Shown here: positions 2,038 to 26,418 of the stretch, one piece after another
Layout of the letters: each line of letters starts with the position of its first letter
How positions within the stretch are numbered: position 1 is the first letter of the stretch
From: Bacteroidota bacterium
Lineage (GTDB): Bacteria; Bacteroidota; Ignavibacteria; Tepidaquicellales; Tepidaquicellaceae
NCBI GenBank assembly: GCA_018266845.1
Contig: JAFDZO010000001.1
Coordinates: 13,565 to 77,564 of the forward strand
DNA length: 64,000 nucleotides
Reading direction: 5' to 3'
Notes under the pieces: model-generated
The model's input: only the letters and a program-made list of their open reading frames with translations
What the model was told of the DNA's origin: nothing
Databases searched by the model: none
Translations under genes and position numbers: made by a program

Positions 2038-2072
2038 TTGGTAAAATACGTTAAGTGAGTTAATTTACCTTA

Positions 2073-2514
2073 TTTCCACTCTTCAGTGTGGAAATCATTG
2101 TTCAGCTTGTTCCCACGCTTCTGCGTGGGAACATTACCTGTACTTCTAGTGAAGAAACCGTTGCTACGCAGGAGCGTAGCAACGAGGAGTATTTTTTTAC
2201 TGTCAATTGTCTCTTGCTCTCATTGTATGCTTGTTCCCACGCTCCTGCGTGGGAACGTAACCTGTACTTCAAGCGAAGAAACCGTTGCTACACCGGAGCG
2301 TAGCAACGAGAGTATGTTTTTTGTTTTACTGTCAATTGTCTCTTGCTCTCATTGTTTACTCGTTCCCACGCTCCTGCGTGGAAACGTAACCTGTACTTCA
2401 AGTGAAGAAACCGTTACTACGCAGGAGCGTAGCAACGAGAGTATGTTTTTTGTTTTACTGTCAATTGTCTCTTGCTCTCATTGTTTACTCGTTCCCACGC
2501 TCCTGCGTGGGAAC
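2073..2514. repeat. REP-like palindrome array, left side of the transposase
   Basis: Two 24-nt palindromes alternate. Type A has stem GTTCCCACGC with loop TCCT (2109-2132, 2233-2256, 2362-2385, 2491-2514). Type B has stem GTTGCTACGC with loop AGGA (2160-2183, 2284-2307, 2413-2436). Type B is type A turned round, with three stem bases changed on each side. Each A-B pair with its spacers forms a unit of 124-129 bp that repeats in tandem. A degenerate copy (TTTCCAC/GTGGAAA) lies at 2073-2094. The arrangement is that of bacterial REP/BIME elements moved by RAYT transposases, one of which starts 57 bases further on. Confidence 0.9.
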
Positions 2515-2570
2515 GGTAAGAGGCTTCAATATTCATTTAATCTCTTCTGAAAATAAAATACTATTTATTG

Positions 2571-3104
2571 ATGAGAAGCAGAAATAAAATTTATAACGCT
2601 AATGGAGTTTACTTTATTACCTCTACTGTTGTGGATTGGCTTGAATTATTTAATAGTGATAATTCTTTTGAGATTTTAGCTGACTGTATAAATTTTTACA
2701 TTCGTAAAAAAAATTTCAAAGTTCATGCTTATGTCTTTATGAAAAATCATTTTCACTTAATTTGCTCCGGGGAAAATATATCAAAATCAATTGGCTCTAT
2801 TAAAAGTTTTTCAGCAAAGAAAATGATTGAAAAACTAAAAGACGAAAATAATTATGAAGTATTGAATAAATTAAGAGAAACAAAAAAGAAACATAAAACC
2901 GACAGGCAATTTCAGTTCTGGCAGGAAGGGTTTTATCCTAAAGAAGTTTTAAGTAATGGCGAATTAAAACAAAAGATTGAATACATTCATTACAATCCCG
3001 TTAAGAAAAATTATTGTGCTGAAATGGCAGACTGGAAATACTCATCAGCAAATTACTATAAAACTGGTATAGAAGGGATTATCTTTGTAGAGAGGATAAT
3101 TTGA
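2571..3104 (+). CDS. REP-associated tyrosine transposase (RAYT, Y1/HUH family)
   Basis: A 177-residue single-domain Y1 transposase. The HUH motif is KNHFHLI (His60 and His62) and the catalytic tyrosine is in the motif IEYIHYNPVKKNY (Tyr138 or Tyr141). The N-terminus (YNANGVYFITSTVV) and the late motif FWQEGFYPKEV are typical of RAYTs, which cut and rejoin single-stranded REP hairpins and are usually single-copy, domesticated relatives of IS200/IS605 transposases. I chose ATG at 2571 over the TTG one codon upstream. The gene is intact and has palindrome arrays on both sides, the layout called a REPtron in enterobacteria. The assignment is firm; activity on these palindromes is inferred from position. 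Confidence 0.9.
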   Translation: MRSRNKIYNANGVYFITSTVVDWLELFNSDNSFEILADCINFYIRKKNFKVHAYVFMKNHFHLICSGENISKSIGSIKSFSAKKMIEKLKDENNYEVLNKLRETKKKHKTDRQFQFWQEGFYPKEVLSNGELKQKIEYIHYNPVKKNYCAEMADWKYSSANYYKTGIEGIIFVERII

Positions 3105-3109
3105 TGTTC

Positions 3110-3545
3110 GTTGCAACGCCGGAGCGTAGCAACGAGGAGTATATCTTTGTTTTTTCTTGTTCCCACGCTCCGATGTGGGAACATTACCTGTAATTCAAGT
3201 GAAGAAACCGTTGCTACACCGGAGCGTAGCAACGAGGAGTATGTTTTTTTGTTTTATACTCGTTCCCACGCTCCTGCGTGGGAACGTAATATTTACAGCG
3301 TAGCAACGCTGTAGCGTAGCAACGAGGAGTATTTTTTACTATCAATTGTCTCTTGCTCTCATTGTCTACTCGTTCCCACGCTCCAGCGTGGGAACGTAAC
3401 AAGTACAACGTAGCGTAGCACGAGAAGAAATACTTCTCCGTGAATTAATTTGTGTAATTTCTAGTTAGGTTTTTGTTTTCCTCGCTCCCACGCTCCTGCG
3501 TGGGAACATAATATGTACAACGTTGCTACGCAGGAGCGTAGCAAC
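3110..3545. repeat. REP-like palindrome array, right side of the transposase
   Basis: The array resumes six bases after the RAYT stop. Type B copies lie at 3110-3133, 3210-3233 and 3522-3545. Type A copies lie at 3159-3182, 3262-3285, 3372-3395 and 3484-3507. The spacing is less regular than on the left, and scrambled fragments of type B are seen at about 3296-3325 and 3405-3422. The last 40 bases before lnt contain a second, unrelated direct repeat (variants of GTGAATTAATTTGTGTAAT at about 3440 and 3566). The last palindrome could also serve as a 3' end for lnt, which converges on it. Confidence 0.85.
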
Positions 3546-3588
3546 GAAAAGGAATACTTCTGTGTGAATTAATCTGTGTAATCTATAG

Positions 3589-5256
3589 TTAGGTTTTCCG
3601 ATTAGTTCTCTTTGTTAATCCTGCGCCGATTGCAAAAAGTAAGACTGCTCCGCTAATCCAAAGGCAGATTCTGCAAAGCCAGTCGCCATGCTCCGTATAA
3701 AAAGTTTTTTCTTTTATGATTCCGATTTTTCCTGCGAAAGAAGCCCGTTCGTTAATTGCCGTTTCGTTATATTTGTTTCCGTAAGGGTCAATAAATTCCG
3801 ATATTCCGGTATTCGCGCTGCGCGCAATCCATCTCCTGTTTTCAATAGCGCGTAAGACAGCGTATTGATTGTGCTGATAAGTTCCGAAAAGTTTTCCCCA
3901 CCAGCCGTCGTTTGTAATTATAGTGCAGAAGTCTGCTCCTTTTTTTACGAAGGCAGAAAAATATTCCGGGTAAACCGATTCATAGCAGATTGCAGTATTA
4001 AACTGCGTTCCGTCTTCGAGTACAAAGTTGTTTGTGTCTTTTCCAATCTGCCATTGGCTTATACCAACCTGCCATGTAACATAGTCTTTTAAAAATCCGA
4101 GAACTTCCTGATAGGGAACGCGTTCGCCCCCTATGACAAGTTTATTTTTTTTATACACCTGATACTCTGCTTGTGTTTTGTTTTTTTCAAAAAGCAGCGC
4201 GGCGTTAAAGGTATCGTAATATGCACCGTCATTGCTGCGTTTCGCGTCAACGGGTGCTTCGGTGGAATCTTTATAAATTTTATAATAAGGCAAACCGACT
4301 AAAAGCGGAGTATTAGCGGAGTCAACAAAGTTTTTTATCTTTAAATATTTTTCTAAATTGATAGTGTTGAAAAGGTAAAATGTAATTGCAGTCTCCGGCA
4401 ATATAACAAGTTTTGTTTGTGGATTTTTTTCTTTCAGCTGCTTTATCATATCTACGTAGTCTGTTACAAACTGCATCTGTTTGCTGCCCCAGCGTTCCCA
4501 AGGGTCAGAGTTCGGCTGAACAACTCCTATACTAATTTCTCCATTGGTAAAAGCGTTTTCATATTTTGCTTTGCTGCCGCGCGTAAGTGTATAAACATCG
4601 GGAGCAAAATATATTGCAAGAATTATTATAACGGTGATGATAGTTTTAGCAGAAGAAATTTTCCATTCACCGCTTTTAATTTTTTCAATCAGATAAAAAA
4701 GTAAAGCGCCGACGGAACAAATCCAGAATGACAAACCATAAACGCCTGTGAACTCGATGAACTGAATTTTTGAAAGATTATACGTCTGAGTATTCCCAAA
4801 AGAAAGCCAAGGAAAGCTGAACTGCGTAAGCGTATGAATATACTCAAATGCCGTCCAGATAAAAGGAAATGTTATAAGATAAGCGTAAGGAAATTTTTCG
4901 CTGCGGAAATTTTTATATGCTTTGAAAAAAGCTGCAGCGGGAATCCAGAAAAAAACAGGATGTGCAAGCAGCGCAAGAAGACCGGCGAAGATTAAATATC
5001 TTTCTGCGTTGTGGCTGAATCCGCTGAGGCAAATCCATGAGATTGCGATGAGATTGAACCAGAAAAAAACAGAGTAAGTTTTTTTTAAAACTTCCCCGAA
5101 CGAATTGCTAGAGATAATTTCTCTTATTAAAAGAACGATGCCAAGATAAATGAGCGGATAAAAATTGATTGGCGGAAATGCCAGCCCAAAACACGCTCCG
5201 CAGAGAAAACGAATCCAGAAATCTGTAGTCTTAAACCTGTTGAGAAATTTTTTCAA
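3589..5256 (-). CDS. lnt: apolipoprotein N-acyltransferase
   Basis: A 555-residue inner-membrane enzyme that adds the third acyl chain to the N-terminal cysteine of lipoproteins. About six hydrophobic segments fill residues 1-215, followed by a nitrilase-fold domain. The catalytic triad is visible: Glu288 in VILPETA, Lys370 in YKKNKLVIGGERVPY and Cys424 in NTAICYESVYPEYF. Length and order match the family. The start is TTG (TTGAAAAAATTT), and no better start lies near. The gene stands alone, with the palindrome array downstream and a divergent gap before ndk. Lipoproteins needing this enzyme are encoded nearby (28449-28940). Confidence 0.97.
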   Translation of the reverse strand: MKKFLNRFKTTDFWIRFLCGACFGLAFPPINFYPLIYLGIVLLIREIISSNSFGEVLKKTYSVFFWFNLIAISWICLSGFSHNAERYLIFAGLLALLAHPVFFWIPAAAFFKAYKNFRSEKFPYAYLITFPFIWTAFEYIHTLTQFSFPWLSFGNTQTYNLSKIQFIEFTGVYGLSFWICSVGALLFYLIEKIKSGEWKISSAKTIITVIIILAIYFAPDVYTLTRGSKAKYENAFTNGEISIGVVQPNSDPWERWGSKQMQFVTDYVDMIKQLKEKNPQTKLVILPETAITFYLFNTINLEKYLKIKNFVDSANTPLLVGLPYYKIYKDSTEAPVDAKRSNDGAYYDTFNAALLFEKNKTQAEYQVYKKNKLVIGGERVPYQEVLGFLKDYVTWQVGISQWQIGKDTNNFVLEDGTQFNTAICYESVYPEYFSAFVKKGADFCTIITNDGWWGKLFGTYQHNQYAVLRAIENRRWIARSANTGISEFIDPYGNKYNETAINERASFAGKIGIIKEKTFYTEHGDWLCRICLWISGAVLLFAIGAGLTKRTNRKT

Positions 5257-7452: not shown

Positions 7453-7698
7453 ATGGAAAAAATTGTATTAAATAATGTACCGGATTCTTTATATAATTCT
7501 TTAAAGCTTAATGCAGAAAGAAAACATAAGACTCTGGAGGAGGAAGCGTTAAGTATTCTTGCAGATAATCAGGCAGCAAGAACTCAAAGAGAGGTAAATA
7601 CCATAATTCAGGAACTTAAAACTTTGCATGAAAAAATAAATCTTTTACCTATGGACGATTTATTTCTACACGAAGCTAAAAACTTAGGAAGAGATTGA
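7453..7698 (+). CDS. FitA/VapB-type antitoxin
   Basis: An 81-residue protein with an N-terminal ribbon-helix-helix: MEKIVLNNVPDSLYNSLKLN, then AERKHKTLEEEALSIL. The C-terminal half is helical and would wrap the toxin. Such antitoxins bind the operator of their own operon and neutralise a PIN-domain RNase. It overlaps the toxin gene by four bases (TTGA), which is typical of a coupled toxin-antitoxin pair. Confidence 0.85.
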   Translation: MEKIVLNNVPDSLYNSLKLNAERKHKTLEEEALSILADNQAARTQREVNTIIQELKTLHEKINLLPMDDLFLHEAKNLGRD

Positions 7699-8090
7699 TA
7701 GTTGCAGATACTAACATAATTTCATATACCTTTATTAAAAGCAATTTGACAGAAAAATGCTTCGAGCTTTTAAAAAAGGACCCTGATTGGATTTCTCCCT
7801 TGCTATGGAAATCAGAGTTTAGAAATGTGCTTATGCAGCATATAAGATTTAATTCTTTAGATTTACAAACTGCAATTGAAATTATGACTATTGCAGAGAA
7901 CTTTATGAAAAGCAATGAATATGAAATTGAATCAAAAGATGTTCTTGAGTTAATCACTTCATCGAAAGCATCAGCCTACGATTGTGAGTTTATTGCCTTG
8001 GCAAAAAAATTTAATATCAAATTAATAACTACTGATAATAAACTTATCGGTTCTTTTCCAGACACCGCAATTCACTTAAACGAATTTTAA
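7695..8090 (+). CDS. vapC: PIN-domain toxin (VapC family)
   Basis: A 131-residue PIN-domain ribonuclease. The four acidic metal ligands are in place: Asp5 (IVADTNIIS), Glu41 (WKSEFRN), Asp96 (SAYDCEFIALA) and Asp114 (TTDNKLI). VapC toxins cut tRNA or rRNA when the antitoxin is lost. The start is TTG inside the antitoxin stop (TTGA), so translation is coupled. Both genes look complete, so the module may be active. The next gene converges from the right only 20 bases away. Confidence 0.88.
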   Translation: MIVADTNIISYTFIKSNLTEKCFELLKKDPDWISPLLWKSEFRNVLMQHIRFNSLDLQTAIEIMTIAENFMKSNEYEIESKDVLELITSSKASAYDCEFIALAKKFNIKLITTDNKLIGSFPDTAIHLNEF

Positions 8091-24481: not shown

Positions 24482-25398
24482 ACGAAAAAAGTTTAACGAA
24501 AAAACACTTCATTTTTTGTTAGCAATATATTCTTACTCGCAGCTATGCTCCAGCGTAGCAGCGAAAAGACTACAGCTCCCCTTTGGTTACAACGCCGGAG
24601 CGTTGTAACCAGAACAACTTTTGTTAGCAGTATACTCTTACTCACAGCTATGGACCAGCGTAGCTGCGAAAAGACTACTGCTCCCCTTTGGTTACAACGC
24701 TGGAGCGTTGTAACCAGAACAACTTTTGTTAGCAATATTTTCTTACTCGCAGCTATGCACCAGCGTAGCAGTGAAAAGACTACTGCCCACATTGGTTACG
24801 ACGCTGGAGCGTTGTAACCAGAACAACTTTTGTTAGCAATATATTCTTACTCGCAGCTATGCTCCAGCGTAGCAGCGAAAAGACTACTGCTCCCCTTTGG
24901 TTACAACGCTGGAGCGTTGTAACCAGAACAACTTTTGTTAGCAATATTTTCTTACTCGCAGTATGCACCAGCGTAGCAGTGAAAAGACTACTGCCCACAT
25001 TGGTTACGACGCTGGAGCGTTGTAACCAGAACAACTTTTGTTAGCAATATATTCTTACTCGCAGCTATGCTCCAGCGTAGCAGCGAAAAGACTACTGCTC
25101 CCCTTTGGTTACAACGCCGGAGCGTTGCAACCAGAACAACTTTTGTTAGCAGTATATTCTTACTCACAGCTTTGCACCAGCGTAGCTGCGAAAAGACTAC
25201 TGCCCCCATTGGTTACAACGCCGGAGCGTTGCAACCAGAACAACTTTTGTTAGCAATATATTCTTACTCGCAGCTATGCTCCAGCGTAGCTGCGAAAAGG
25301 CTACTGCCCCCATTGGTTACAACGCTGGAGCGTTGTAACCAGAACAACGAAAAAGGTTTAACGAATAAATATTTCATTTTTTGTTGTTAATATATTTG
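24482..25398. repeat. tandem palindrome array, about 104-bp units
   Basis: Eight 24-nt palindromes with stem GTTACAACGC and loop TGGA or CGGA start at 24586, 24691, 24795, 24900, 25003, 25108, 25212 and 25316, a period of 103-105 bp. Each unit also holds a second palindrome, GCTATGC-TCCA-GCGTAGC with outer TCGC/GCGA. Units 2-3 and 4-5 are near-identical pairs, so a block of about 209 bp was duplicated. The flanks carry an imperfect direct repeat of about 50 bp (24482-24531 and about 25348-25398) that contains TTTAACGAA and TTCATTTTTTGTT. Several open frames run through the array on both strands but have no coding features. The design is that of the RAYT-flanking palindromes at 2-3.5 kb. Confidence 0.9.
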
Positions 25399-26267: not shown

Positions 26268-26302
26268 TGAAAAGGTCAAATAGTGAAATAGTGTTCAATT
26301 CC

Positions 26303-26405
26303 GTTGCGACGCAGGAGCATCGCAACGAGGAGATAGTAGTCTCTCGTTACAGCGCTCCTGCGTTGTAACGTACTTACTCTGGTTACGACGCTCCAGCGTA
26401 GTAAC
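26303..26405. repeat. three REP-like palindromes
   Basis: Three 24-nt palindromes, at 26303-26326 (stem GTTGCGACGC, loop AGGA), 26346-26369 (GTTACAGCGC, loop TCCT) and 26382-26405 (GTTACGACGC, loop TCCA). They lie between the WYL gene and ligA, which converge here, and may serve as a shared 3' end. The three differ from each other in the middle of the stem, with mostly matched changes on the other side. Confidence 0.85.
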
Positions 26406-26418
26406 CTTATAACTCTAA

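Follow-up and report, generated by a model that had tools for sequence, protein, structure and literature searches.

The biochemistry of RAYTs (TnpAREP) was carried out on proteins from E. coli, Stenotrophomonas and Marinomonas (PMC8266576). In E. coli, the protein contacts a GTAG foot, which is thought to select the C|T cut site, and for the E. coli and Stenotrophomonas enzymes the foot, the bulge or the loop outweighs most of the stem sequence (PMC8266576). Bacteroidetes RAYTs with hairpins termed "atypical" are grouped as subclass 2.6 (PMC6006769).

The window, i.e. the whole stretch of 64,000 nt that was analysed, belongs to Bacteroidota bacterium GCA_018266845.1 (contig JAFDZO010000001.1, positions 13,565-77,564, forward strand). 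It contains a locus that is read here, with a probability of roughly 0.85, as a REPtron: a RAYT gene inside an array of the REPs on which it most likely acts. The first-pass annotation had placed this REPtron far from the phyla in which such systems were characterised. For the biochemistry this is correct (PMC8266576), but RAYTs of Bacteroidetes with atypical hairpins had already been reported (PMC6006769).

RAYT gene and protein

Profile scores and a 12-protein alignment agree with the earlier description of an intact Y1/HUH gene with His60, His62 and a tyrosine in YIHYNP. The protein scored 105.1 bits against NCBIfam NF047646 REP_Tyr_transpos (cut-off 80) and 28.7 bits against Pfam Y1_Tnp (cut-off 23). 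Its motifs are N59-H60-F-H62 (HUH), W117-Q118-E-G and YIHYNP with the catalytic Tyr138; H60, H62, Y138 and N142 were invariant in the alignment. E. coli TnpAREP was the sole match in a PDB sequence search. A structure model built from four relatives (pLDDT 67, moderate confidence) has a predicted fold that was matched best by REP-bound E. coli TnpAREP (4er8), with the ISDra2 and IS608 transposases ranking next.

The latter matches and the common HUH/Y1 fold would also suit an ordinary IS200/IS605 insertion sequence, the subterminal hairpins of which had multiplied locally, a reading that is very improbable given a score of 19.7 bits against the IS200 model (cut-off 55) versus 105 bits for REP_Tyr_transpos. 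The gene is present as a single genomic copy, the two other RAYTs of the genome being merely 40% and 34% identical to it, the flanking ORFs include no tnpB-like neighbour, and the hairpin is present many times without the gene. Membership of IS200/IS605 was rejected on the equivalog score below the cut-off and the lack of near-identical copies in the genome.

Palindrome array around the gene

The RAYT gene is surrounded by 15 palindromes at 2108-3546 and one decayed copy at 2071-2096; with this first copy included, the array extends from 2071 to 3546 (Table 1). Type A, GTTCCCACGC-TCCT-GCGTGGGAAC, is found on the + strand of the window and type B, GTTGCTACGC-TCCT-GCGTAGCAAC, on the - strand. 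At up to three mismatches, nine matches to type A and seven to type B were obtained in the window, with 0 expected (shuffled sequence gave none); one of the nine is the reverse-strand reading of the palindrome copy at 3372, and one of the seven sits at 26303, beyond the RAYT array. Types A(+) and B(-) alternate on both sides of the gene, forming the close inverted REP pairs that characterise BIMEs and REPINs, with one gap where a B was lost or decayed between 3371 and 3483. The claim that palindromes of two inverted types flank the gene is thereby borne out.

Palindromes of 24 nt in units of 124-129 bp had been proposed. The spacing was recovered upstream of the gene (124 and 129 bp, start to start), and the length was corrected to 26 nt because the full stems are 11 bp long, enclosing a loop of 4 nt. 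Five copies folded as single-stranded DNA gave this same 11-bp stem and 4-nt loop, at -14 to -15.2 kcal/mol (z -7.3 to -9.7). The dinucleotide CT stands immediately 5' of the stem in every copy of the array except the last (3521-3546). An Rfam scan of the RAYT locus matched no family.

Table 1. Positions of the RAYT gene and of REPs in the window.
Feature	Position	Strand	Remarks
Decayed REP	2071..2096	+	TATTTCCACTC-TTCA-GTGTGGAAATC; CT foot
REP type A	2108..2133	+	CT foot
REP type B	2159..2184	-	CT foot
REP type A	2232..2257	+	CT foot
REP type B	2283..2308	-	CT foot
REP type A	2361..2386	+	CT foot
REP type B	2412..2437	-	CT foot
REP type A	2490..2515	+	CT foot; final copy ahead of RAYT ATG (2571)
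RAYT (TnpAREP) gene	2571..3104	+	177 aa, ATG to TGA, intact ORF
REP type B	3109..3134	-	CT foot; starts 5 bp past RAYT stop codon
REP type A, imperfect	3158..3183	+	CT foot
REP type B	3209..3234	-	CT foot
REP type A	3261..3286	+	CT foot
Decayed REP type B	3299..3324	-	CT foot
REP type A	3371..3396	+	CT foot
REP type A	3483..3508	+	CT foot
REP type B	3521..3546	-	Foot TT
Second array, same REP design	24585..25340	-	8 copies; GGTTACAACGC-TCCN stems and variants; CT foot; ~104-bp period; intergenic
Three more REPs, same design	26302..26406	.	Divergent stems; intergenic

Hairpin design of the RAYT clade

Hairpins were collected, with a pairing criterion, at 39 RAYT loci, of which 14 belong to the family of the window, another 21 to the rest of the GTDB phylum and 4 to proteobacteria. 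Stem pairing in this set is therefore given by construction, and the foot and the free-position test are independent of it; orientation was assigned from the loop, independently of the foot. Directly 5' of the 11-bp stem, CT was present in 104 of the 122 TC-loop hairpins near these loci, versus a mirror-image AG 3' of the stem in 8 of 122, and the 3' side had no conserved position at all. Counted over distinct arms, the CT foot occurred in 74 of 90 against a background of 7% (p ~6e-68). The consensus over the 39 loci is CT-CGTTCC....-TC(C/T)(N)-....GGAA(C/T)G; the middle of the stem varies between RAYTs and mostly agrees within one locus.

One design, consisting of an 11-bp stem, a TC(C/T)(N) loop and a CT foot (AT in Pseudomonas, where it was found in 50 of 53 hairpins), flanks nearly all RAYTs of the clade in Bacteroidota/Ignavibacteria, Pseudomonas, Desulfobacterota and Planctomycetota. 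The GT[AG]G foot is absent from the hairpins of the clade, in which the foot reads NNCT (NNAT in Pseudomonas). Correspondingly placed in the alignment, P123, K124 and L127 of the window RAYT occupy the positions of E. coli E100, H101 and R104, and W94 and Q95 are retained; three of the five GTAG-contact residues examined (list from PMC6006769) are thus replaced. With both the foot and the foot-reading residues changed, the CT/AT foot and the replacements would fit a recoded guide, as judged from the aligned sequences.

Other RAYTs and arrays in the same genome

The 3.53-Mb assembly contains three RAYTs above the family cut-off, including that of the window. The hairpins are CT+CGTTCCCACGC and CT+CGTTGCTACGC at the window RAYT, have CATTCCCAAAC and CCGTCCCAAAC stems at the contig 7 RAYT, and read GCC+GTCGTTGGTC-TCC at the contig 15 RAYT. 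The contig 7 pair recurs at a closely related RAYT in a sister species (G015; the two loci are L050 and L052); at L050/L052 the REPs, with ATTCCCAAAC and CGTCCCAAAC stems, stay with their RAYT across the two species. Contig 15 (L036:3209-4741) holds a second type of REPtron, with the foot GCC instead of CT, in which the RAYT (3628-4149, - strand) is flanked by 15 hairpins of the form GTCGTTGGTC-TCCC-GACCAACGAC and relatives.

Pattern searches supplied the palindrome totals for genomes; the flank statistics were calculated on retrieved loci. In the window's own genome, the pattern GTTNNNNNGCTCCNGCNNNNNAAC (GTT-N5-GCTCCNGC-N5-AAC) identified 121 palindromes, and the reversed control 0. The five free base pairs of this pattern were Watson-Crick in 256 of 290 cells (88%) of the listed copies versus 33 of 120 (28%) in chance matches elsewhere, and two to four pair types were seen at four of the five free stem positions in the listed genomic copies; these are therefore hairpins that vary in the stem with pairing preserved. 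Exact copies of the stem types of the window RAYT occur six times elsewhere in the genome (one A and five B), the REPs that flank this RAYT being dispersed in the genome.

The window RAYT had been named as the source of the other arrays in the window. Their stems (GTTACAACGC and variants), however, are unlike those at the RAYT locus, and the exact own-stem copies elsewhere are the six just mentioned. As two further RAYTs with their own hairpins are present besides, the window RAYT is not established as the maker of these arrays. Even odds are given to the reading that the locus is a REPtron and that the other arrays owe their origin to different RAYTs, to RAYTs since lost or to the drift of older REPs. 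It draws on the different stems, on the separate hairpin sets of the two further RAYTs and on reports of Pseudomonas REP classes that persist without their RAYT (PMC3686654), and is countered by the match of the other arrays to the REPs at the RAYT locus in the CT foot, the TC loop and the GTT/AAC ends. One enzyme could serve several stems, because foot, bulge or loop outweigh the stem for the E. coli and Stenotrophomonas enzymes.

Elsewhere in the window (7453-8090), two adjacent small ORFs of 81 and 131 aa resemble a FitA/VapB-type antitoxin and a PIN-domain toxin.

Distribution and phylogeny of the clade

Exact copies of palindrome A were also found in Pseudomonas, other Gammaproteobacteria, Zetaproteobacteria, Desulfobacterota, Planctomycetota, Latescibacterota and more. 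Among 119 loci with the exact palindrome, a Y1 protein was encoded at five; four of these proteins, one of them truncated, are related to the window RAYT at 34-45% identity, and in all four cases the palindrome abuts the gene. In the Pseudomonas listings, +/- palindrome pairs are mostly 72-91 bp apart.

In 50 palindrome-bearing genomes from other phyla, all 18 RAYT loci at E <=2e-49 were flanked by [CA]T-footed hairpins, which were again collected with the pairing criterion. Weaker matches, to E 1e-28, had footed hairpins at two of five loci (L244 and L246, not L245, L251 and L252), and RAYTs in these genomes more distant than E 1e-28 had no [CA]T-footed hairpins alongside. In a tree of 71 RAYTs, every one of the 46 with tagged hairpins was placed inside a single branch of 52 rows, and the tag label required 6 changes versus 21 in shuffles; of the six rows in the branch without a tag, four or more (L049, L056, L207 and L217) carry CT-footed hairpins whose loop is different. 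One well-supported inner branch unites the proteobacterial and planctomycete RAYTs with two from Bacteroidota. This mixture of phyla suggests that the RAYT clade has moved between phyla, with no direction implied by the unrooted tree. A search of phages for the RAYT gave no match, and a search of plasmids gave six remote matches and identified no transfer vehicle.

A RAYT 40% identical to that of the window is encoded on a 562-kb replicon of Salinivibrio kushneri that is listed as a plasmid (NZ_CP114587.1:1112-1627). In an uncultured Desulfobacterium (L137:5476-6063), an in-frame fusion joins an unrelated N-terminal domain, which resembles ORF6N, to the C-terminal portion of a RAYT that lacks the HUH motif; the palindrome still adjoins this gene.

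Palindrome number and RAYT presence

The proposal that palindrome number should track the RAYT among relatives was followed up with a positive outcome in two sets of genomes. In 199 Pseudomonas genomes, the RAYT was present in 31, each with 2-289 palindromes (median 56); the 168 RAYT-less genomes had a median of 0, with none in 105 (Mann-Whitney p ~2e-16, strain relatedness ignored). In 296 Bacteroidota genomes, a strong RAYT match was found in 10 of 13 carriers of the true palindrome versus 34 of 283 others (p 4e-7, relatedness ignored). Copy number did not differ with or without the RAYT (p 0.52) in 50 genomes that form an ascertained set, chosen for carrying the palindrome.

Many palindromes in genomes of close relatives that had never carried a RAYT had been put forward as refuting evidence. 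High copy number without a RAYT was indeed seen, 18 of the 168 RAYT-less Pseudomonas genomes retaining 20-180 palindromes, and could be explained by prior loss of the RAYT. Other REP classes likewise persist without a cognate RAYT, which has been put down to RAYT loss (PMC3686654), and by analogy the palindromes in RAYT-less Pseudomonas are likely left over from such loss. Pseudomonas genomes such as G324, G526 and G463 contain 148-180 palindromes and no RAYT of the window's clade.

High copy numbers in many RAYT-less genomes, the strength of the hairpins and the intergenic position of the window's other arrays would also be expected of RNA- or chromosome-level elements (terminators, mRNA stabilisers or protein-binding sites), spread by another enzyme or by recombination, among which the RAYT had landed. 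That account is improbable: the same RAYT clade is accompanied by the same design with differing stems at ~50 loci in several phyla, more distant RAYTs are without the design, palindromes occur in every RAYT-positive Pseudomonas genome (31/31), and the locus has no Rfam match.

Proposed mechanism and significance

The reading of the locus as a REPtron, in which gene and palindromes belong together, is supported by the alternating REPs, by the co-occurrence of clade RAYTs and hairpin design across phyla and by palindrome counts that track the RAYT. The gene product would be a Y1/HUH endonuclease that acts on single-stranded DNA. By analogy with characterised relatives, from which its binding, cleavage and transfer of REPs are inferred, it most likely binds the hairpin formed by a single-stranded REP, for example on the lagging-strand template, and most likely recognises the stem-loop, with TC in the loop, together with the CT dinucleotide at the 5' foot. 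It would cleave beside the hairpin via Tyr138, forming a Tyr-DNA link, and rejoin the ends. Cleavage and rejoining would spread and maintain the REPs, either alone or in inverted A(+)/B(-) pairs, and so confer mobility on them, while the RAYT gene would stay single-copy within its own array.

REPtrons are known, as are the subclass 2.6 hairpins without GT[AG]G from Bacteroidetes (PMC6006769). Compared with the main text of PMC6006769, the definition of the hairpin design, the CT/AT foot and the coupling to a RAYT clade outside Bacteroidota appear to be new. A RAYT partner for the Pseudomonas palindrome also appears to be new. The palindrome itself is absent from the text of PMC3686654, the main survey of REP classes in fluorescent pseudomonads: neither TTCCC nor GTGGGAA occurs there, the table of 22 REP classes included. 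A literature search by palindrome sequence yielded no relevant paper among the matches listed.

On balance, a third large REP superfamily is favoured, whose defining features would be hairpins with a [CA]T foot, a stem of 11 bp and a TC(C/T)(N) loop, together with a RAYT clade of its own in which the GTAG-reading residues are replaced. It would span at least Bacteroidota/Ignavibacteria, Pseudomonadota, Desulfobacterota and Planctomycetota, would have moved between phyla, and would account for the widespread GTTCCCACGC..GCGTGGGAA palindromes of Pseudomonas; the palindrome was also found in Latescibacterota, Zixibacteria and Zetaproteobacteria. The RAYT clade is the likely mobiliser of a palindrome present in many unrelated bacteria. 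REP/RAYT biochemistry has so far been based on GTAG-reading enzymes, and a clade whose foot is different but just as fixed, and whose contact residues are replaced, offers a natural experiment on how the foot ("guide") determines where cleavage occurs. The Pseudomonas copy-number data provide a ready comparative system of RAYT-positive and RAYT-negative strains.

Comparison with known systems

The locus resembles the E. coli REPtron (TnpAREP 4er8 with REP/BIME; group 2) in the HUH/Y1 fold, the dispersed REPs and the position of the gene amid inverted REP pairs of two related types. It differs in that the window REPs have neither the GTAG foot nor the stem bulge, and in the replacement of E100, H101 and R104. 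With the REPINs of Pseudomonas and Stenotrophomonas (group 3 RAYTs) it shares perfect short palindromes, inverted doublets and a copy number tied to the cognate RAYT, exceptions being ascribed to RAYT loss (PMC3686654); those REPINs differ by the GT[AG]G foot. Assignment to the classical GT[AG]G REPs was rejected on the NNCT/NNAT foot and the loss of the E100/H101/R104 equivalents from the cognate RAYT.

The GTAG and CGTC REP superfamilies and the TIRtrons are similar in having REP-like palindromes with a one-sided tag, and TIRYT genes are without GTAG repeats (PMC3733652). The CGTC REPs are described as having stems of 8-9 bp that open with two A/T positions, and as lacking a partner transposase (PMC3733652). 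By this description the window REPs are set apart by the CT/AT tag, the 11-bp stem that starts C-G-T-T and the loop of 3-4 nt, and the stem led to the rejection of the CGTC class.

TnpAREP subclass 2.6 (PMC6006769; Bertels group 5), composed mostly of Bacteroidetes members, is the likely matching subclass for the window RAYT. The protein length (177 aa; subclass median 179) and the HUH-to-Y distance (~78; median 82) are close, and both have NHxH, WQ, YIHxNP, hairpins without GT[AG]G and a GTAG-reading region that is not conserved (PMC6006769). A visual comparison with Table 1 of PMC6006769 places NHFH and YIHYNP of the window RAYT just outside the subclass motifs NH[LIV]H and YIH[QN]NP, which the clade relatives fit. 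The subclass 2.6 hairpins are called atypical, with weaker secondary structure and no consensus in the main text (PMC6006769), whereas those found here are strong, with a fixed CT/AT foot and a TC loop. The subclass is mostly from Bacteroidetes (PMC6006769), and the present clade extends to Pseudomonas, Desulfobacterota and Planctomycetota.
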